IMG/VR virus record: IMGVR_UViG_3300037156_000063
Location: 1-22,971 of that record
Direction: 5' to 3' (one strand)
DNA length: 22,971 nt
Source: a virus
Below the pieces are notes generated by a model. That model worked only from the letters and a program-made list of their open reading frames with translations. It did not search any database and was not told where the DNA came from. The position numbers and the translations under genes are program-made. Position 1 is the stretch's first letter, and the number at the start of each line of letters is the position of its first letter. This document shows positions 3,459 through 22,971 of the stretch, piece by piece.

Positions 3459-5366
3459 CTAGTAAATTTTTAGCTGCCTTAGCTCGGGAGCGTCGTACAG
3501 GAGTTGCCCCCCAGGAGAGGTTATTTGCACGAACGCCTGAACGAGGGTTGCGTTCTCCACGTTCACGGGGACGTCCAGGTACGTTATAGGTCCGTAGGTT
3601 GCGTAGTCCACCGTCGCGTAGGAAAGGCTCTCAGGCTGCACGTCCTCCTTGCGGAACGCGAGCTGGATGCCCTGCCCAGCCGACAGCGGCTTGGCGAACG
3701 TAACGAGGCACTTCTCAAAGGTACGTGGGTTGTTGCTGTCCCCGACGACGTAAACTTCTGAGGCGAGCATGGCCAGGTAGCCGGTGGCTCGGGACGGTCC
3801 AATGAACCCCTTAGTGGCGTAGCTGTCCACGCCGTAGCTCGGCGTGCCGCTCGCGTTCGGGTTGTACCACCCCAGCACTGGCCACTGAACCCCCGTGTGG
3901 GTTGCAGGAACCTGCCAGGCGTACATCGCGCCGGTCTGAACGCCGTACCCCCCGCTGCTGACGTACTCCATGCAGTACGCGTCGGGCTGCGGCTGGAAGT
4001 CCTGCGCGGGCGAGCCAGCCTCAAGGTTCACCGAGTATATGCCCGATACTTGGTCGTCCGGAGGCGTTGCCGCCGACGACACGTCTCCCGTGAACGCCAC
4101 GAAGAGCCTCCCCTGGATGGCGCACATTCCGTTGGTGGAGCAGGTGACGGTGTACTGCGGGTAGCCTGAAAGGTAGTCCGAGAAGTCCACAATCTTCTGC
4201 ACGTACGTCCCGTAGGTTTTGTAAATGTTGCCCTTGTACCCGCAGCTGACGTACAGGATGGAGTTGATGTTCACCATCGCCGCCACGTTGTTCTCGGGCA
4301 TGAACATGGGGGTCGTCGGGTTCTGGGAGGTCAGGTCCCAGAGGTAAATGCGGTTGGACGCCGTGCCGATTACGAGCTGGTCCGCGAAGTTCTCGAGGCA
4401 CGTCACCTGAATTGCAACCAGGGGGACGACGAGGGCTGCGATGTTGGCGGTGTACGTTCCCGAGCTGGTCGGGTCGAACGTTGAGCCTGCCGTTGCCGTC
4501 AGCGACCCAATGAACGGCTGGCCGACGGGGTACGTGCTGCTGACGGTCGTGTCGGCGTAGTCCCCCCAGTACAGCGTCCCACCCGTTGCCCTGGCTGCCT
4601 GCACGAACGGGCAGTGGGTCTTCGTGTCGGTGTTGGCGCACAGGAGCGTTACCCAGCTGTTCTGCCAGCCCCTGCTGGCGCGGACGCTCGTGAACGGACC
4701 CCACGTCGAGATGGTTGCGTTGTCAAAAACTAAGAGGTAGTTGTTCCAGAAGACCAGCCCGTTGCCAGCCGCGCTGCTGCCTCCCGCCGAGGTGTTGCCG
4801 GCGATGAGGTACCAGAGCAGCGACGCGTCCTGCACCCAGAGCCTGCCCGTGCCGTCCAGCCCGTACAGGAGGTGGCTGCCGTCGCTCTCCCTCGACAGTG
4901 CGAACTGGGTCATTAGGTGGGGAGCGAGCGTGGCGAACCCAGAGCCTGAGGTGCTCGACCCCGACAGTGAAATGGCCGTGCCGACGAGCGCGTTGTCGAG
5001 CGTGGCTGCAACGCTGGCGGTTAGGCTGCCCGTGTCTATCACGAAGTACACCACGCCAGCCGTCAAGCCCGTTGGAAGGGTGCCGCTGAACGTGATTGCC
5101 ATGCCGTCCGCCGAGCCTGTGCCTCCGCTGTTGAAGGTGCGCTCTATTGACTTTGACAGCGTTATTACGTTGCCCGAGCCTGGGTAGCTGAACGTCCCGA
5201 CGACGGGAACGTCAGCCTGGCTGAACATCTGGAAGTTCGGCTTCACCACCCCGTCCACGTTGAAGACGTCGCAGTTGTACATCTCCTGGAAGCCCGTGTG
5301 GGGGGACGCGCCAATGCCCGCGCTCCAGCCCTCGATGGTTATTACGTTCTGGGTTGGCTTTGCCAT
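3459..5366 (-). CDS. Propeller-like tail nozzle / stabilisation protein
   Basis: This is a 635-aa protein. It opens with 'NVITIEGWSAGIGASPHTGFQEMYNCDVFNVDG', a layout like the N-terminus of podophage nozzle or tail hub proteins, in which the first strand introduces a beta-propeller. Residues about 55-150 are a Ser/Thr/Gly-rich insertion. After that come regularly spaced blade-like strands: 'HLLYGLDGTGRLWVQD', 'GLVFWNNYLLVFD', 'FADQLVIGTASNRIYLWD', 'SILYVSCGYKGNIYKTY' and 'GRLFVAFTGDV'. The C-terminus (about 530-635) is a beta domain that ends in a charged 'ELRQLKIY'. The neighbouring adaptor gene supports a tail hub or nozzle role like P22 gp10. The repeats and strands are visible; the homology is inferred. 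A general propeller adhesin is the main alternative. The start ATG 5366 follows GTAACCTAAAGCT, with no clear Shine-Dalgarno sequence. Confidence 0.65.
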   Translation of the reverse strand: MAKPTQNVITIEGWSAGIGASPHTGFQEMYNCDVFNVDGVVKPNFQMFSQADVPVVGTFSYPGSGNVITLSKSIERTFNSGGTGSADGMAITFSGTLPTGLTAGVVYFVIDTGSLTASVAATLDNALVGTAISLSGSSTSGSGFATLAPHLMTQFALSRESDGSHLLYGLDGTGRLWVQDASLLWYLIAGNTSAGGSSAAGNGLVFWNNYLLVFDNATISTWGPFTSVRASRGWQNSWVTLLCANTDTKTHCPFVQAARATGGTLYWGDYADTTVSSTYPVGQPFIGSLTATAGSTFDPTSSGTYTANIAALVVPLVAIQVTCLENFADQLVIGTASNRIYLWDLTSQNPTTPMFMPENNVAAMVNINSILYVSCGYKGNIYKTYGTYVQKIVDFSDYLSGYPQYTVTCSTNGMCAIQGRLFVAFTGDVSSAATPPDDQVSGIYSVNLEAGSPAQDFQPQPDAYCMEYVSSGGYGVQTGAMYAWQVPATHTGVQWPVLGWYNPNASGTPSYGVDSYATKGFIGPSRATGYLAMLASEVYVVGDSNNPRTFEKCLVTFAKPLSAGQGIQLAFRKEDVQPESLSYATVDYATYGPITYLDVPVNVENATLVQAFVQITSPGGQLLYDAPELRQLKIY

Positions 5367-12913: not shown

Positions 12914-13942
12914 CTATACGCCCGTTATGCCGGTCAGCGCGCCGTGGCGACGTGGGTTGTCGGTAATCAGGTTGCCGCCCAGGACCACGAAGGAGTTCAC
13001 GCTGAAGCTGTTGAAGGACTTAATCCAGCCCGTCCAGCTGAAGCCCATGCTCTCGGCCTCGTTGTACTGGTTGCCCACGATTTTCTCGTAGCGTACCGGT
13101 ACCTCTTCGCCGAACTCGCCAGGAATTGGCAGGACGTAGAAGTCCATGAACTCCTCGTTCAGCATATACAGGTAGCCCGCTGGGGCTTTCCTGTCGCTCA
13201 GGAGGGGAATGCCCAGGAACTCCATCGCCTTGTAGCCGGTGAAGCCCTTGAAGTTCTTTGCCACCTGCACGTCCTTCATGATGCGCTCCTGGGGCTGCAG
13301 GAGTGACTCGTAGAGGGCGGTGACTGCGAACGGGGCGTAGATGCTCGTCGGCTGCACGCCAGCGTCGGTGATGGCGTTGTACAGCGTTCGGAGGCTCAGG
13401 AGGGTCAGGAGGCCGCTGGAGGCTGCCGTGAGGGTGCCGTCCAGGGTTGGGTACGTGCTGCGGCTCAGGTTGCCGATGGTGGTAACGGTCGTGCCGTCGT
13501 TCACCAGGGCCGTCAGGCCGAGCATGTCCTTGCCGCCGTTGCCCGTGCCGTCGCCGTAGAACATGGTGCCGAGGAAGTCGGCCAGGTCCTGCGCTCGGCT
13601 GCGGCACTCAACCTCGGCGAGGTCGATGGTCTTCTGCACGGTGTTGTTTGCCGCCAGGTCGGTAATGGGCAGCGCGATGTTCGCCGCGACGAACTTCGGG
13701 TTGTACTGCATGAGCACTCTGGTGTTCGTTGCGGTGGTTGGTAGGGAGTCGAACCCGCTGAAGGAGGTGATGTTGCCGCCGGTGTTGAACTTGATAGGGA
13801 AGTCCATGGTCGCTGCCTTGAACTTCTTGTCCGTCTTGCTGAGCATGGACGTCGTGAAGACGTTCGTTCTCAGCACGGTGTCAACAACCTGCGGTACAAT
13901 CCACTCCAGCGTAAGGGTGTCTACCCTGTTGTCGAATGACAT
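12914..13942 (-). CDS. Major capsid protein (HK97-fold type)
   Basis: This is a 342-aa protein encoded directly after the scaffold, in the canonical position for the capsid subunit. The N-terminal helix ('NRVDTLTLEWIVPQVVDTVLRTNVFTTSMLSK') is followed by an extended 'FPIKFNTGGNITSFSGFDSLPTT' that would suit the E-loop. A spine-helix-like segment follows ('TIDLAEVECRSRAQDLADFLGTMFYGDG'), then an A-domain-like region with 'TLYNAITDAGVQPTSIYAPFAVTALYESLLQPQ' and 'GYKAMEFLGIPLLSDRKAPAGYLYMLNEEFMDFYVLP'. These last segments are typical of phage capsid proteins of this size. Its leader carries the G-free TTAACCAACCAACA motif instead of a Shine-Dalgarno sequence. The assignment rests on position, size and segment order; no alignment was possible. 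Confidence 0.85.
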   Translation of the reverse strand: MSFDNRVDTLTLEWIVPQVVDTVLRTNVFTTSMLSKTDKKFKAATMDFPIKFNTGGNITSFSGFDSLPTTATNTRVLMQYNPKFVAANIALPITDLAANNTVQKTIDLAEVECRSRAQDLADFLGTMFYGDGTGNGGKDMLGLTALVNDGTTVTTIGNLSRSTYPTLDGTLTAASSGLLTLLSLRTLYNAITDAGVQPTSIYAPFAVTALYESLLQPQERIMKDVQVAKNFKGFTGYKAMEFLGIPLLSDRKAPAGYLYMLNEEFMDFYVLPIPGEFGEEVPVRYEKIVGNQYNEAESMGFSWTGWIKSFNSFSVNSFVVLGGNLITDNPRRHGALTGITGV

Positions 13943-15670: not shown

Positions 15671-17539
15671 TTAAATTTGAATTGACTGAACCAGCTGCTG
15701 CCCCATAGCCTCCGCTGGGTCTACGGGGGGCGTGGGCAGGGGAGGAGACGTCCCCTGCGCAATTTGCCCTTGGCCTGGCGGTTGTCCAGGCTGAACCGGC
15801 GCGGGCTGCTGCCAGTCGGGGAACATCACCGTCGGGGGCAGCGTGCCCATCTTTACCATGCTCCAAACAAGGAGCTGCTTCGCCTTTTCGTATGGGTCGG
15901 GGTCGTCCAGGGCGCTGAACAGGCTGATTGGGTCAATTGCCTCGGCGTTCCACAGGTCAATAGCCTCGTTGCGCTTCGTTAATGGGTCTTTTGGTATGCT
16001 GCTGCCGCCCTTCACCGTCACCATGAGGCGCGTGTCGCCGAACTGGGTGTTCACGAGCTGGTAGAACTGGGCTGCCTTGTCCTCGCCGAGCGTCACCGCC
16101 GTGCGCACCTCGGTGTAGTGGACGTAGAACATCTGCACCCAGTAGTCGTACAGGGAGGCCACCATCTGCTCGACGTGCGACGTTACGCCGCCGCCAATCC
16201 TGCTGGTGTCCAGCTGCGCGTTCAGTATCTTGCCGCGCACCGTGTCCTCCTTCTTGCTGCCCTCTGGAGTGCTGCCCGAGATGCCGAAGATGTCCTTCAT
16301 CTCGCTGCGCCTGTCGCGGAGGTCGTTGAACACGTCGGCGGGCAGCCCCGGCACCTCGCTGCGCTGGTAGCTGTCGCCTATCGGTCCCTCGGGCACCCAC
16401 AGGCTGTTGCCCCTGGCCAGCTGGTCGCTCGCCTCGCTCGCCTGCTCCTTCGTGAAGCTCTTGCCGCTCAGGACGATGGCGTTGTTCATCATGCGGACGT
16501 TCTTGTCAATCTGCTTCTCGCGGGCGTTCACCATGTCCTGGTTCGCCAGGTTCTGCTCGACGAGGTTCGTGTCGTCGTGGGGGCGCTGGCCCGTGGTGAA
16601 GACGCTCAGGAACACGTAGGGAATGCGCGGGGACTGGAGGTGGTTCTTGCCCTGCACCTCGTTCTCGCTGGTAACCTCGCCCGTCTCGGGGTCGGTCTGC
16701 TGCTCCACCGCGTCGTAGTTCCAGTGCGGGTTGCGGTACTTGCCGAGCACGACGTCCCTGCCGAGCGTGAAGAACAGGCTCTCGGCCGTCCACCACTCCG
16801 TGTACGTCAGAACCTTGGCGAGGTTGCCCTGGCACGCTGCCAGTATTGCGTCCTTCTTCTTCGGGAACATCTCGGACAGCCGCTTGGCGGTGCTGTACTT
16901 GTACTGGCCGACGTAAGAGCCTTTGTATAAACCGTTCTCGTCGATGCCGTAGTCTTTATCAAAAATGAGGTGCTCGGTGTGGACGACCTCGGTGCCGATG
17001 TCGTTCTCCTCGGCGTCCCACGTCACCTTCAGCGCTCCCACGAACTCGAGCGTCCACACGCGCACGGTGCGCTGCACCTTCAGGCGCAGGGCTAGGCGGT
17101 CTGCCTGGAACTTCAGGAACGCCTGCACGGTCTTGGCCATCTGCTGCCCCTGGGGGCTGTCGTCGGCGTACACGAGGGCGTCCGGGGGCTGCTGGATGGC
17201 CATCGGGACAAAGGTTTCAACCGAGTTGAACAGCTGGTTGTCCACGATGGGGCGCGTTCCCTGCTTCAGCCCCTGCGCCCAGCCGAACTGCCGTCCGCGC
17301 CAGTAGTCGTAGTTCTCCTTCTGGCGCTTGCTAACCTTCTGCTGGTAGTCGAAGTACGCGTCCTCCCACTGGTGCGTCGTATCCAGTATTTCGTCGTCCG
17401 GCATGGACAGCTCGAACTCCGGCACCTCCTCGCTCAAGTCCTGCGCCAGCTTGCCCTCGACCGAAGACTTGCCCTTGTTCAGCGGGTTGAAGAGGCTTAG
17501 GAAGCCGCGGACGTTCTCGATGTAGTTGCTTTGAGCCAT
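15671..17539 (-). CDS. Portal protein (P22/podophage type)
   Basis: This is a 622-aa protein from ATG 17539 ('MAQSNYIENVRGFLSLFNPLNKG'). An upstream GTG at 17560 in the same frame falls within the terminator region and is rejected. Portal-like signatures include 'QKENYDYWRGRQ' (wing), 'PIVDNQLFNSVETFVPMAIQQPPDALV', 'HTEHLIFDKDYGID' and 'RIPYVFLSVFTTGQRPHDDTNLVEQNLANQDMVNAREKQIDKN'. The stem-to-crown segment 'MKDIFGISGSTPEGSKKEDTVRGKILNAQLDTSRIGGG' is a hallmark of dodecameric portals of this large type. A Pro/Gln-rich tail (about 575-622) closes the protein. It forms the DNA channel at the capsid vertex, binding TerL during packaging and the adaptor afterwards. It is the first gene of the late virion operon, 10 bp below an intrinsic terminator. 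Confidence 0.9.
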   Translation of the reverse strand: MAQSNYIENVRGFLSLFNPLNKGKSSVEGKLAQDLSEEVPEFELSMPDDEILDTTHQWEDAYFDYQQKVSKRQKENYDYWRGRQFGWAQGLKQGTRPIVDNQLFNSVETFVPMAIQQPPDALVYADDSPQGQQMAKTVQAFLKFQADRLALRLKVQRTVRVWTLEFVGALKVTWDAEENDIGTEVVHTEHLIFDKDYGIDENGLYKGSYVGQYKYSTAKRLSEMFPKKKDAILAACQGNLAKVLTYTEWWTAESLFFTLGRDVVLGKYRNPHWNYDAVEQQTDPETGEVTSENEVQGKNHLQSPRIPYVFLSVFTTGQRPHDDTNLVEQNLANQDMVNAREKQIDKNVRMMNNAIVLSGKSFTKEQASEASDQLARGNSLWVPEGPIGDSYQRSEVPGLPADVFNDLRDRRSEMKDIFGISGSTPEGSKKEDTVRGKILNAQLDTSRIGGGVTSHVEQMVASLYDYWVQMFYVHYTEVRTAVTLGEDKAAQFYQLVNTQFGDTRLMVTVKGGSSIPKDPLTKRNEAIDLWNAEAIDPISLFSALDDPDPYEKAKQLLVWSMVKMGTLPPTVMFPDWQQPAPVQPGQPPGQGQIAQGTSPPLPTPPVDPAEAMGQQLVQSIQI

Positions 17540-17548
17540 AGTGTATAC

Positions 17549-17587
17549 AAAAAAAGACACCTACGTGCCCGTTGGGGTCGTGGTGTC
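17549..17587 (-). terminator. Intrinsic terminator directly upstream of the portal gene
   Basis: On the minus strand GACACC-ACG pairs with CGT-(A)-GGTGTC, nine base pairs with one bulged A, around an inner CCC/GGG. The hairpin is followed at once by seven T (17555-17549). This is a textbook rho-independent terminator. It ends 9 nt before the portal ATG, so transcription from upstream would stop there unless antiterminated. Confidence 0.8.
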
Positions 17588-17632
17588 CGTCTGTTTCCAG
17601 TTTAGGACCTAAGGGAAACTGTCTACGTCTCA

Positions 17633-17661
17633 AAAGTACACCATCGGCGTAAGGGTGTCAA
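17633..17661 (-). promoter_or_regulatory. sigma70-like promoter candidate before the portal
   Basis: A perfect TTGACA (minus strand, 17661-17656), a 17-nt spacer and TACTTT (17638-17633). The -10 matches TATAAT at only three positions, so strength is uncertain. Predicted start is near 17627, giving a leader of about 75 nt that runs into the terminator. That arrangement would suit an attenuated or antiterminated late promoter. Confidence 0.45.
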
Positions 17662-18169
17662 GTCGGGTCAGTTGTCCACAGGTCGGCGTTCGCTTCTGAG
17701 TACAGGTCTACCTTTGTATCCCCCTTGTAGCTGGGTGGGTACACTGTGGAATATACAGCGAAGCATGGAAGTAAACGGCGTTTTGTGTCCTTGAGGGGTC
17801 ACCCGTTGTGAGGTAGTCGCACAGCGCGGGTAATTGGCAAGGGCGCAAGTGCAGGGATTTAACGTGGCTCGCTGCAATCCACGGGCTGCCTGCGTTGTAT
17901 TTTGTTCCACAATCTTTCTTCGCCGAGCTTTGAACGCTCGCGGCTGGACTGTGCGTAGTCGCTCCACTGGTAAGTGGGTTAATTCGGGGAAAGAACGGTG
18001 CACCTATCCTTCCCTTACTTCCCCAAGCCCTGCTACGCCCATTGCGGGAGGGGGCTTCTACAGTCCATGCGCGAGCAAACAAAAAACTACCCTAGTCTGG
18101 CTCGCGGGTGGTTGAGGCACCTACGAGCAAGCTACGGCAGTCTTTTAGCCCCTCAACAGCGGTACAATC

Positions 18170-18197
18170 AGTATACCACACCTGCTCACAGGGGCAA
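18170..18197 (-). promoter_or_regulatory. sigma70-like promoter with extended -10
   Basis: Minus strand: TTGCCC (18197-18192), 16-nt spacer, TATACT (18175-18170), preceded by TGG, which gives an extended -10 (TGnTATACT). The -35 matches 4 of 6 and the -10 matches 5 of 6 consensus bases. It overlaps the last codons of the 74-aa gene and points into the noncoding region, with a start near 18163. Confidence 0.6.
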
Positions 18198-18410
18198 GCC
18201 CTTGGAGCTGTGGATAACTCCGACCCTGAATATTGATATGCGCGGCACCTCGACGCGGACGATGGTCCCGTCGTGGTTGAAGTGCACCAGCGCCACGCCG
18301 CTCTTCACGTCGAACAGCTGGCTGTCCACGAGCTTCTGGAACTCGTCCTGGTGCTCGCGCCACGCCTTGAAGGACTCCGCCTCGAGGTCGGTCAGGTCGA
18401 CGCTAATCAC
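18186..18410 (-). CDS. 74-aa hypothetical protein coupled to TerL
   Basis: Starting at GTG 18410, which overlaps the TerL stop (GTGA) and has GGAGGGAG just upstream, this frame encodes 74 aa. The N-terminal helix 'DLEAESFKAWREHQDEFQKLVDSQLF' is followed by 'DVKSGVALVHFNHDGTIVRVEVPRISIF', a compact alpha/beta pattern. I recognise the look of a small conserved hypothetical found near terminase genes of short-tailed phages, but no function. The longer frame opening at 18605 lies inside TerL and is not accepted. The promoter for the noncoding region overlaps its 3' end. Confidence 0.65.
   Translation of the reverse strand: MISVDLTDLEAESFKAWREHQDEFQKLVDSQLFDVKSGVALVHFNHDGTIVRVEVPRISIFRVGVIHSSKGLPL
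18209..18217 (-). other. DnaA-box-like 9-mer TTATCCACA
   Basis: This is an exact match to the classic DnaA box, read on the minus strand, at the end of the 74-aa gene. Related sites in the adjacent noncoding region are TTGTCCACA (+, 17672-17680), TATTCCACA (-, 17753-17745) and TGTTCCACA (+, 17903-17911). Four TCCACA cores in about 550 bp is more than expected by chance, but this one falls in codons (Val-Ile-His-Ser), so function is uncertain. Confidence 0.3.
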
Positions 18411-19999
18411 ACCTCCCTCCAGTCCGGCTCGCGTGCCCTCAGCGGCACCAGCAGCTGCAGTGCGCTCGTCTCCCTCAGCTTCGCCCCGACGGTGAACGTT
18501 GCGCTCGGCTCGACGAACCCGCCGGGAGTGCCGCCGTAGCGCTGCATTCCCGCCATCCAGTACACCGCCGCCATGACCAGGTGGTCGGCACCAGTGCGCC
18601 TCCACACGTAGCGGTCCACGCCCAGGCTCGTCTCCTCAACCTCCCTGTAGATGGCGTTCGCGTGCAGCCAGAACTGGTGCCAGTCGAGCCTGCTGCCGTT
18701 CAGGACTATGCGCCTGTCCCGCAGCTGCTCCGCCAGCATGGACACGCTCCTGTTGCGGTCAACCTTCACCGTGCCGTACTCGTCGCCCTCGCCCCACCGC
18801 GACAGCTCCATGCTGGCCTTGTCGCTCTGGAAGTAGCACAGGAACACGCGCCCGGGGTACTTCACCTGCAGGGCGCGGATGCCTATCAGGTCGCCCCCCT
18901 GGTCCGCCACCATGATTGCCCTCGGCCACTTGACCATCAGCAGGTCCAGCTCGTCGTACCCCTTGCAGTGGCCGTGGAAGAACAGCCCCTGGTCGTTGCC
19001 GCACACGTACCAGATGGGCAGCCCCGTGTCCACGCCTATGATGACGCGCCCGCCCTGGTCGTTCGCCACGCTGGAGCAGCACCCCAGCACGTCGTCCTCG
19101 GACAGCTTGCTCGTTGAGTCGGCGTAGGGCAGCCCCAGCACGTAGTTCCAGAAGTACTGCGCGTCCTTGTGCTGGAAGTCGTCCACGATTTTCGCCGCGG
19201 TAATCCACGGGCACATGAGCTGCGACACCCAGTAGCCGCTGAACTTGCCCTGCGCGGTCGCCCGCCACACCCCCACGCGTCGCTCGTCGTCGCTCAGGGT
19301 GTGCCCGCACGCCTTGCACACGTACACGCCCCTCTCGGCGTCCACGCTGCGCGGCCACGTCAGCGTCTGCTGCGCACGGCAGCTCCCGCACGTTACCATC
19401 CACAGCTTCTGGTCGCTCTGCCTCCAGTACCTGTCTATCCCCACGTTCTCGAGCGTCGGGTGGCTGAAGTACCACCTCATGCCGTCCGAAACGGCCTGGA
19501 GGCGCGTCTCGTACTGCTCCATGACCTGCGGGTTGCTGGCGTCCACCTCGTCGTGCACGTTCAGGCGGCTGGTGACCATCATGGCCTGCTTCGCCGTGAA
19601 CGTGCCGCGTATGTAGATTAGGTTGTCGCCCACCTGCTTCTGCTCGATGGTGTCGTGGTCCTTCACCCAGTCCATGAACACTGGGTTCTGCGCGATGATG
19701 CGGTTCAGCTTGCCGCCGACTATCTCCTGCACGTCGCTGGCCGTCGGCAGCGTGTAGATGGCGTCCATCTGCCTCTGCTTCGCCATGAACATGACCTTGA
19801 CGAGGTTCATGGTCGTTGCGCCAACCTGCGGTGCCTTCAGCAGAACCTGCAGCGGGCTGAGGTCGTTGTAGATGTCGTACAGGAACAGGTGGTCGCGGAA
19901 GCGTATCGGCAGCCCCTGCTCGTTCTTTACCCCGTACTTCTTAATCAAAAGGGTCGGCAGCTCCTCCATCGCGAGGCTGGCCATCTCGTCATTCGTCAT
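18407..19999 (-). CDS. terL: Terminase large subunit (lambda gpA-like family)
   Basis: This is a 530-aa protein from ATG 19999, chosen over an ATG at 20050 because GGGGAGG lies 3 nt upstream and the overlap with the previous gene shrinks to 11 bp. The ATPase part carries a deviant Walker A 'KAPQVGATT' (55-63) and Walker B 'NVHDEVDA' (147-154). A zinc ribbon, C204-x2-C207 with C228-x2-C231, sits between the ATPase and nuclease parts as in gpA-type terminases. The RNase H-like nuclease shows Asp324 ('IIGVDTG'), Asp366 ('MVADQGGD') and Asp472 ('TGADHLVMAAVYW'). Known terminases of this family translocate DNA through the portal and cut concatemers. The absence of GKT/S in Walker A is normal for this family. 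It sits with TerS upstream and the portal downstream of the noncoding region. Confidence 0.92.
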   Translation of the reverse strand: MTNDEMASLAMEELPTLLIKKYGVKNEQGLPIRFRDHLFLYDIYNDLSPLQVLLKAPQVGATTMNLVKVMFMAKQRQMDAIYTLPTASDVQEIVGGKLNRIIAQNPVFMDWVKDHDTIEQKQVGDNLIYIRGTFTAKQAMMVTSRLNVHDEVDASNPQVMEQYETRLQAVSDGMRWYFSHPTLENVGIDRYWRQSDQKLWMVTCGSCRAQQTLTWPRSVDAERGVYVCKACGHTLSDDERRVGVWRATAQGKFSGYWVSQLMCPWITAAKIVDDFQHKDAQYFWNYVLGLPYADSTSKLSEDDVLGCCSSVANDQGGRVIIGVDTGLPIWYVCGNDQGLFFHGHCKGYDELDLLMVKWPRAIMVADQGGDLIGIRALQVKYPGRVFLCYFQSDKASMELSRWGEGDEYGTVKVDRNRSVSMLAEQLRDRRIVLNGSRLDWHQFWLHANAIYREVEETSLGVDRYVWRRTGADHLVMAAVYWMAGMQRYGGTPGGFVEPSATFTVGAKLRETSALQLLVPLRAREPDWREV

Positions 20000-20189
20000 G
20001 CGCCTCCCCGACCAACGTGTAGTCCTCGGGCAGCGCGTACTGGGACTCAACCCACGCGCCGTCGAACTTCTTCATCCTAACAACGTCGCTCCACTGAACC
20101 GTGCAGCCGTCGCGCAGCGGCTTGCCGTTCCTGTCGGTGAAGCCCTGGCGAGCGTAGTGGAAGCCTCCGCCCTGGATGGCTATGGTCAT
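19989..20189 (-). CDS. 66-aa hypothetical protein between TerS and TerL
   Basis: This is a 66-aa protein ('MTIAIQGGGFHYARQGFTDRNGKPLRDG...') with a beta-rich pattern, 'VQWSDVVRMKKFDGAWVESQYALPEDYTLVG', and no Cys. It starts with an ATGA overlap on the previous gene and ends inside the TerL start by 11 bp, so the three genes are translationally coupled. No family is recognised. Position suggests a packaging accessory or simply a conserved small operon member. Confidence 0.65.
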   Translation of the reverse strand: MTIAIQGGGFHYARQGFTDRNGKPLRDGCTVQWSDVVRMKKFDGAWVESQYALPEDYTLVGEAHDE

Positions 20190-21310: not shown

Positions 21311-21552
21311 TCCGTCACAGTGCCGCATATCGCGTTGTGCGCCCTGTCAATGAAGGCGAACTCCTCTCCCCCCACGTTGAACACGTCCACTGCCCACGCC
21401 TTCAGCAGCAGCACGTCCCCAACCTTCCACATCTTCTCGTCCGGGTGTACGGCTACCACGTCGGCAACCTCTGTGCGAACCTGGCTGCTGAGCGCGCTGC
21501 TGGCGTTCCGCAGCTTAACCATTATCTTGTCGCTCGTTGGGTACACCGTCAT
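21307..21552 (-). CDS. groES: Phage-encoded GroES-like co-chaperonin (short mobile loop)
   Basis: This is an 81-aa protein aligning by eye with GroES (97 aa in E. coli). 'MTVYPTSDKIMVKL' corresponds to 'MNIRPLHDRVIVKR', 'VADVVAV' to 'GEVLAVG', 'WKVGDVLLLKAW' to 'VKVGDIVIFNDG' and 'EEFAFIDRAHNAICGTV' to 'EEVLIMSESDILAIV'. The stretch equivalent to the mobile loop ('RNASSALSSQVRTE') is about ten residues shorter than in GroES and lacks the usual hydrophobic Ile-Val-Leu tripeptide that contacts GroEL. The gene follows the phage groEL with an ATGA overlap, so the two are surely made together. In T4-like phages the analogous co-chaperonin gp31 enlarges the cage for capsid folding; a similar virion role is inferred here. 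Confidence 0.8.
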   Translation of the reverse strand: MTVYPTSDKIMVKLRNASSALSSQVRTEVADVVAVHPDEKMWKVGDVLLLKAWAVDVFNVGGEEFAFIDRAHNAICGTVTE

Positions 21553-22971
21553 TTTACTGTAACCCCTTCCGCGAGCTGGAAGCTGACGGCCACCTCGGTC
21601 GTAGCCAGCGTCGCCGCGGCGTGAACCGCGTTCTTAATGGCCTCCGTTTCAACCTTCGCCGGGTCTATAATGCCCGCGTCCACCAGGTTCACCCACGCGC
21701 CCGTCCGTGCGTTCCACCCCATGCCAGGGTTCGTCGGGAGGAACAGAGACGTTACCGAGCGCACGTTCTCGCCGGCGTTCCTGAGTATCTGAGCCAGCGG
21801 CTCCTGCAAGGCTCTGCCCAGTATCCTGCTGCCCTCGTCGCTTTTCTCCAGCAGGGCAAGCCCAATGCGGTACAGCGTAGCCCCGCCGCCTGGCACAACG
21901 CCGCCGTCGGCCGCCGCCTTCACCGCCTGCACCGCGTCCTCAATCTTCTTCAAAAGGTACTTAGCCTCGCTCTCGACTGGTGCGCCGACGTGTATCGTTG
22001 CCACCTTGCCCTCCAGCCTCCGCGCCCGCTCGTTCGTCATGTCCCGCTCCACGAGGTTCTTGTTGGCGTGCGCCGTAGCCTTCAGCCAGCTGACGTGGCC
22101 TGCCGGCACGGTGCAGCCCGTCACGACCGTCTGCTTCTCGCCCACGGCTACGCTCGGCGCGTGGCCCAGGTCGCCCACGTCCAGCACGTCGAAGTCAATG
22201 TTCTGCTTCGCGCCCGTCAGCGCTGCCACGTCGTCCAGCTCTGCCTGGGTAAGCCCCTTCACCACGACGCTGCTGAACCTCGCCATCTGCTTGTTGGCGA
22301 CGAACGTGGCAACCACCGCGTCGTCAATGTCCGCGCAGAATATGGCCAGCTTCGCCTGCCCAACCTTCGCCAGCTTCTCGGTTATCGGCACAATGTTCTG
22401 CACCACGTCTATCCGCTTGCCGACGACCAGCACGGGGGTGTCCGTGAGCACCGCCTGCCCCGTGTCCGCGTTGTTCTGGAACTGGCTCACCGCGTAGCCC
22501 CGCTTCAGCATGAAGCCGCTGGTCACCTCCTTGAACACGCTCCCCTCCTGGCTCTGCTCCACGTTGATTAGCCCGTCCGAGCCTACCTGCTTCACCACGT
22601 CCAGTATGGTCTGCCCAACCTCCGCGCTCTCCGCGCTCAGGGTGGCGACGCTCAGTATGTCCTCGTCCGTTGCAATTGGCTTGGCTGCGGCGTTCACCAT
22701 GGCCACCGCGTCCGCCGCTGCCGCGTTCAGCTCGTCGCGCAGCTCCATCGGGTTGCTGCGGCTGGCGAACGCTCCCTCGACCACCGCCTGCATTATGATT
22801 GCCGTCGTGGTAGTGCCGTCGCCGGCGCTGTCGTTCGTTGCCGCCGCCGCCTGCTTCGCAGCCTGCGCGCCCAGGTCTTCAAACTTGTCCGCCAGCTTGA
22901 TGGCGGCGATGATGGTCACGCCGTCGTTCGTCACCTCGGGCGACCACTCCCTGTCAATGAAAACGTTCCTG
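21549..22971 (-). CDS. groEL: Phage-encoded GroEL/Cpn60 chaperonin (partial, 5' end outside window)
   Basis: The frame is open to 22971 and there lacks its N-terminus; the visible 473 residues begin 'RNVFIDREW'. An apparent GTG start at 22934 is simply an internal Val codon. Conserved GroEL features are 'TNDGVTI' (Asp near E. coli 52), the nucleotide loop 'GDGTTTT' (Asp87), the apical 'KRGYAVSQF', the hinge 'VVPGGGATL' and 'VDAGIIDPAKV' (Asp398). The protein ends soon after 'TTEVAVSFQL', so it lacks the Gly-Gly-Met tail. The apical segment matching 'APGFGDRRKAM' is replaced by a shorter, different sequence. It should form an ATP-driven folding ring with the GroES encoded just downstream. Phage GroELs are known from Pseudomonas phage EL, among others. 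Clearly diverged from bacterial groEL and placed in a terminase operon, it is not host contamination. Confidence 0.92.
   Translation of the reverse strand, partial: RNVFIDREWSPEVTNDGVTIIAAIKLADKFEDLGAQAAKQAAAATNDSAGDGTTTTAIIMQAVVEGAFASRSNPMELRDELNAAAADAVAMVNAAAKPIATDEDILSVATLSAESAEVGQTILDVVKQVGSDGLINVEQSQEGSVFKEVTSGFMLKRGYAVSQFQNNADTGQAVLTDTPVLVVGKRIDVVQNIVPITEKLAKVGQAKLAIFCADIDDAVVATFVANKQMARFSSVVVKGLTQAELDDVAALTGAKQNIDFDVLDVGDLGHAPSVAVGEKQTVVTGCTVPAGHVSWLKATAHANKNLVERDMTNERARRLEGKVATIHVGAPVESEAKYLLKKIEDAVQAVKAAADGGVVPGGGATLYRIGLALLEKSDEGSRILGRALQEPLAQILRNAGENVRSVTSLFLPTNPGMGWNARTGAWVNLVDAGIIDPAKVETEAIKNAVHAAATLATTEVAVSFQLAEGVTVK

Follow-up and report, generated by a model that had tools for sequence, protein, structure and literature searches.

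In phage lambda, the late promoter pR' is followed by a short leader, the terminator tR', and then the late genes. Q is described as controlling these late genes (PMC7171158). DnaA can activate or repress bacterial promoters (PMC8203912), and near lambda pO it protects sites that resemble DnaA boxes (PMC3985674). Attenuation of the his operon that depends on DnaA is also reported (PMC10989985), which is taken here as a lead only. GOLLD and ROOL, two large noncoding RNAs carried by phages, are often found near tRNAs (PMC12286853).

The window (the whole stretch of DNA analyzed here, an IMG/VR virus contig of 22,971 bases) has its genes on the minus strand. Upstream of the large terminase gene (18407-20050, minus strand; PHROG 675, 5.1e-81) lies a gene for a GroEL-like chaperonin (21549-22934, minus strand; PHROG 5725, 1.8e-87). 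The portal gene (15671-17539, minus strand; PHROG 156 portal protein, 2.4e-16) and the major head protein gene (12914-13942, minus strand) are found further along the same strand. The gap examined here lies between the large terminase and portal genes, as the first-pass annotation had placed it, and its immediate upstream neighbor is a small gene encoding ~74 amino acids (18186-18410, minus strand). The GTG start of this small gene overlaps the end of the large terminase gene, and its in-frame coding score is +0.42/+0.43. Comparable short ORFs exist directly 3' of the large terminase gene in many relatives.

Relatives of the terminase and portal genes were collected from about 90 IMG/VR loci, and relatives of the head protein added 11 more. 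Terminase relatives are also found on three MAG contigs, which bear the names Parcubacteria, Jorgensenbacteria, and Nealsonbacteria. The host of this clade is thus likely to be among the Patescibacteria, with the usual caution about MAG binning. A scan for closer relatives found no virus sharing the peptide patterns of the GroEL-like protein. In one relative (L100:3940-5000), the large terminase gene is split by an intein-like stretch with an apparent HNH-type endonuclease reading frame inside.

The gap is probably, as we see it with modest confidence, the promoter-attenuator region of the late (portal/head) operon, widened by a partly structured orphan insert. In this clade, the slot between the two genes usually holds a predicted sigma-70-type promoter, a short leader, and a terminator-like hairpin, with a candidate DnaA box in a significant minority of the loci.

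All reading frames of 17540-18180 are negative when scored on the phage's own codon usage, while real genes of the window score from +0.1 to +0.47 with one exception. Pfam and PHROGs searches of the ORFs in the gap gave no credible match. A protein-coding gap is rejected on both grounds, and the block of ~650 bp free of any credible gene is as it had been described. The first-pass annotation had also likened the block to GOLLD and ROOL, and it had named these two, tmRNA, and RNase P as families to be sought in Rfam. When this search was made, no Rfam covariance model, including those of GOLLD and ROOL, matched the region at the gathering score or with E up to 5, and no tRNA, tmRNA, or RNase P was found in the gap by Rfam or ARAGORN. 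Membership in GOLLD or ROOL is thus not upheld, and tRNA, tmRNA, and every other Rfam family are rejected as the identity of the gap.

The gap is more than one unit, with the promoter P2 separating the terminator unit from the rest. The unit next to the portal gene consists of a DnaA-like box (box 2), P2, a leader of ~80 nt, and the terminator T2, in this order (17680-17549). P2 (TTGACA-17-TACTTT; 17633-17661, minus strand) is the predicted promoter of the portal leader. Only three of the six positions of its -10 hexamer match, and promoter-like sites exist at the matching place in most relatives. T2 (17549-17588, minus strand) is a hairpin followed by a T7 run that ends 9 nt before the portal ATG; it is the intrinsic terminator already noticed at this end of the block. 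In relatives, the slot that follows the large terminase gene typically contains the small gene and then a promoter, with a short leader and a T-run hairpin ahead of the portal start. A terminator hairpin (dG of -10 or lower, within 90 nt of the portal start) was found in 42 of 71 distinct loci including the window, compared with 0.6 in shuffled sequences and 6 of 286 other ORF starts of the same loci; about 40% of the loci are without a hairpin by this criterion. Promoter-like hexamers are located 5' of the hairpin in most of 45 units, some promoters of relatives being missed by the scan, and the distance from the -10 element to the T-run has a median of 62 nt (interquartile range 59-70).

The leader of the window resembles those of relatives weakly, and a CTAACC-type leader motif is mildly enriched over shuffles. 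MAFFT alignment of the hairpins yielded no pairs, and the leader model (R1) is a weak, sequence-only model. Its best hit is the window unit, at a weak score (7.8 bits, E 0.16), even though this unit had been part of the training set. The window unit is assigned as a putative portal leader by its position and architecture. In another relative (L031, with the portal start at 4215), the leader between the promoter and the portal gene is enlarged to ~160 nt; the hairpin arms are apparently kept, and the apex has a larger insert. This is a possible precedent for leader growth.

The first-pass annotation had proposed a single RNA of ~600 nt running from the upstream promoter to the terminator. Because the terminator is part of a separate short portal-leader unit that is found in many relatives lacking any large RNA, this single RNA is unsupported.

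The upstream promoter itself is present in the sequence as described. P1 (TTGCCC-16-TATACT; 18170-18197, minus strand) has the extended -10 TG, and one such promoter was found where 0.2 were expected. Between P1 and P2 lies the insert of ~500 nt, which is present only in the window phage among the loci compared. Early in it lies T1 (18081-18146, minus strand), a long hairpin with an A-tract, a stem, and a T6 run, whose dG is about -32 to -35 kcal/mol. T1 could be either a terminator-like hairpin or the 5' domain of the insert. A 14-mer is 86% common to the T1 region (18115-18128, AGGCACCTACGAGC) and the T2 hairpin (17555-17568, AGACACCTACGTGC). This may be chance or a trace of duplication. T1 as a second copy of the portal leader is rejected, as model R1 gives no match to T1 and the common 14-mer may be due to chance.

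T1 is followed by a predicted branched domain of 149 nt (17930-18078, minus strand; z -3.9), which has about four inner stems and is closed by a two-part helix of 7+8 bp (18077-18060 / 17952-17935). The 8-bp long-range pair that had been pointed out within it (18067-18060 / 17952-17945) is exact, and it extends to two arms of 24 nt that are 79% complementary. The remaining 3' part of the insert (17690-17929, minus strand) has no coding signal and is not structured beyond chance (z -1.0). These results suggest that the 5' half of the insert (~220 nt, 18146-17930) is structured beyond what chance folding would give. The proposal of a structured noncoding RNA is therefore kept in part: the region is noncoding, has a promoter, and is partly structured, but structure beyond chance is limited to about 18146-17930.

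It is rather unlikely that the insert (18170-17690) specifies a single large structured RNA, noncoding and of a new class, with transcription from P1 continuing across T1 and the branched domain. Such an RNA is consistent with the lack of coding signal and with the strong promoter at the 5' end of the insert. Folding also agrees with it, as the minus strand has a z-score between -3.4 and -3.7, compared with -1.2 to -1.3 for the plus strand, and no long-range helix of the insert is better than the one closing the domain, which just 3 of 200 shuffles match. Windows of 400 nt along the contig, however, have a mean folding z of -0.36 (sd 1.47), and coding places reach equally low values (-5.1 at 13801 and -3.9 at 19201), so that folding energy by itself is weak evidence. 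A second 8-bp pair, TTGAGGGG/CCCCTCAA (18156-18149 / 17798-17791), could enclose ~366 nt, but its TTGAGG strand has an alternative local partner, CCTCAA. T1 resembles a terminator and comes 80-90 nt after P1, and the 3' half of the insert is unstructured.

Another point against one large RNA is that none of the collections searched gave a homolog of the insert, and there is hence no covariation. The searches (blastn, nhmmer, and whole-record searches) covered about 100 relative loci and 42 whole records or MAGs of relatives, and no homolog was found among 380 genomes of the likely host phylum either. Three exact-pattern scans of IMG/VR gave no homolog, although very near records are perhaps absent from the collections searched. 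Nine IMG/VR contigs share a 16-mer only, with unrelated sequence around it, and two other contigs share a 16-mer. A more specific proposal is that a new class of structured phage RNAs is seen for the first time in the insert. Its features would be a long 5' hairpin and a branched domain with a two-part closing helix of 15 bp, and its transcription would start at a promoter tuned by DnaA, next to the late operon, in phages that have their relatives in Parcubacteria. We consider this quite improbable.

An alternative in line with the absence of homologs is that the insert is decayed sequence. It would be the functionless remains of genes or tRNAs, in a slot whose cargo comes and goes. The content of the slot does vary among relatives, from tRNAs to extra ORFs to nothing. 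tRNA genes are found in the slot of five loci (L044, L047, L065, L091, and L106) and not in that of the window, indicating that the slot accepts RNA cargo. Decay would also agree with the unstructured 3' half. On the other hand, compactness is the rule in phage genomes, the insert retains a strong promoter and two structured elements, and there are no traces of tRNAs or protein families; we regard decay as doubtful. In three relatives (L001:2862-3574, also L002 and L071), a tRNA-like stretch of ~108 nt lies between the slot promoter and the leader hairpin. The stretch of L001 has 7-bp acceptor-like ends, a TTCGATT loop, and a terminal CCA, and it is not called by ARAGORN or Rfam.

Both promoters of the window are preceded by DnaA-box-like sites. 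The perfect DnaA box TTATCCACA (18209-18217, minus strand) is 11 nt upstream of the P1 -35 element and is the sole consensus match in the window. Box 2, TGTGGACAA (17672-17680, given on the minus strand), is in the opposite orientation with one mismatch and is 10 nt upstream of the P2 -35 element. Among relatives, TTWTNCACA is found in 18 of 71 slots, compared with 3.0 +/- 1.6 in shuffled sequences and 2.9 for randomly chosen positions in these loci. The spacing from box to -35 element is 11 nt in L065, 9 nt in L106, and 9 nt in L047, and ranges from 1 to 31 nt across relatives. In many relatives the box falls within the small gene, at its 3' end, and part of its conservation may therefore come from coding; in the slots of L065, L106, and L039 the boxes are outside genes.

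In the window, the boxes belong to an inverted pair of 15-mers (17670-17684 / 18205-18219) that flanks the insert and is 87% complementary. This pair and the uniqueness of the perfect box could mean that the insert is a DNA element with marked ends, such as a replication origin, a packaging site, or the remnant of a mobile element. We hold this to be very unlikely, as both boxes are 10-11 nt 5' of promoters as they are in relatives without the insert, there are just two boxes and no repeat cluster, and strand-specific folding together with the T-runs favors RNA.

If the gap is the promoter-attenuator region of the late operon, most transcription from P2 would end at T2 and give a short leader RNA, and the portal and downstream genes would be expressed once RNA polymerase passes T2, as happens at lambda pR'/tR' with Q. 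Host DnaA might tune the promoters through the upstream DnaA box. The insert would add a second box, P1, T1, and the branched domain (~500 bp) to this region. The P1 transcript would be ~85 nt if it ends at T1 and longer with read-through into the branched domain, and it would most likely act as an accessory leader or a small RNA. The insert is possibly an RNA specific to this lineage. How phages of Patescibacteria control their genes is poorly known, and the recurring unit of promoter, leader, and terminator, together with the DnaA boxes of some members of the clade, provides a hypothesis for the switching-on of late genes and for the way in which this switch could sense host replication. The importance of the insert as a candidate for a new RNA class would depend on homologs that show covariation.

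GOLLD RNAs are often longer than 800 nt and have a universally conserved 3' region. P1 and the portal ATG are ~630 nt apart, and a shared 3' region was found in no relative. Like GOLLD and ROOL, the insert is phage-borne, large, and noncoding. As to the nearness of tRNAs, no tRNA gene is present in the window, and tRNAs occupy the same slot in some relatives. Unlike GOLLD and ROOL, the insert has no Rfam match and ~220 nt of predicted structure, and with no homologs it shows no conserved fold. The resemblance to DnaA-regulated promoters lies in consensus boxes close to the promoter, with putative DnaA binding. The window promoter differs from those of phages and bacteria in preceding head genes and not replication genes. 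The order at lambda pR'/tR' is the same as in the window at the level of sequence: a promoter, a short leader, an intrinsic terminator, and late genes. No Q homolog or pause element was identified in the window, nor any antiterminator gene, the window covering part of the genome. Compared with lambda, the window has a shorter leader (~60-80 nt), a DnaA box upstream of the promoter, and a terminator that ends a few nucleotides before the portal ATG.
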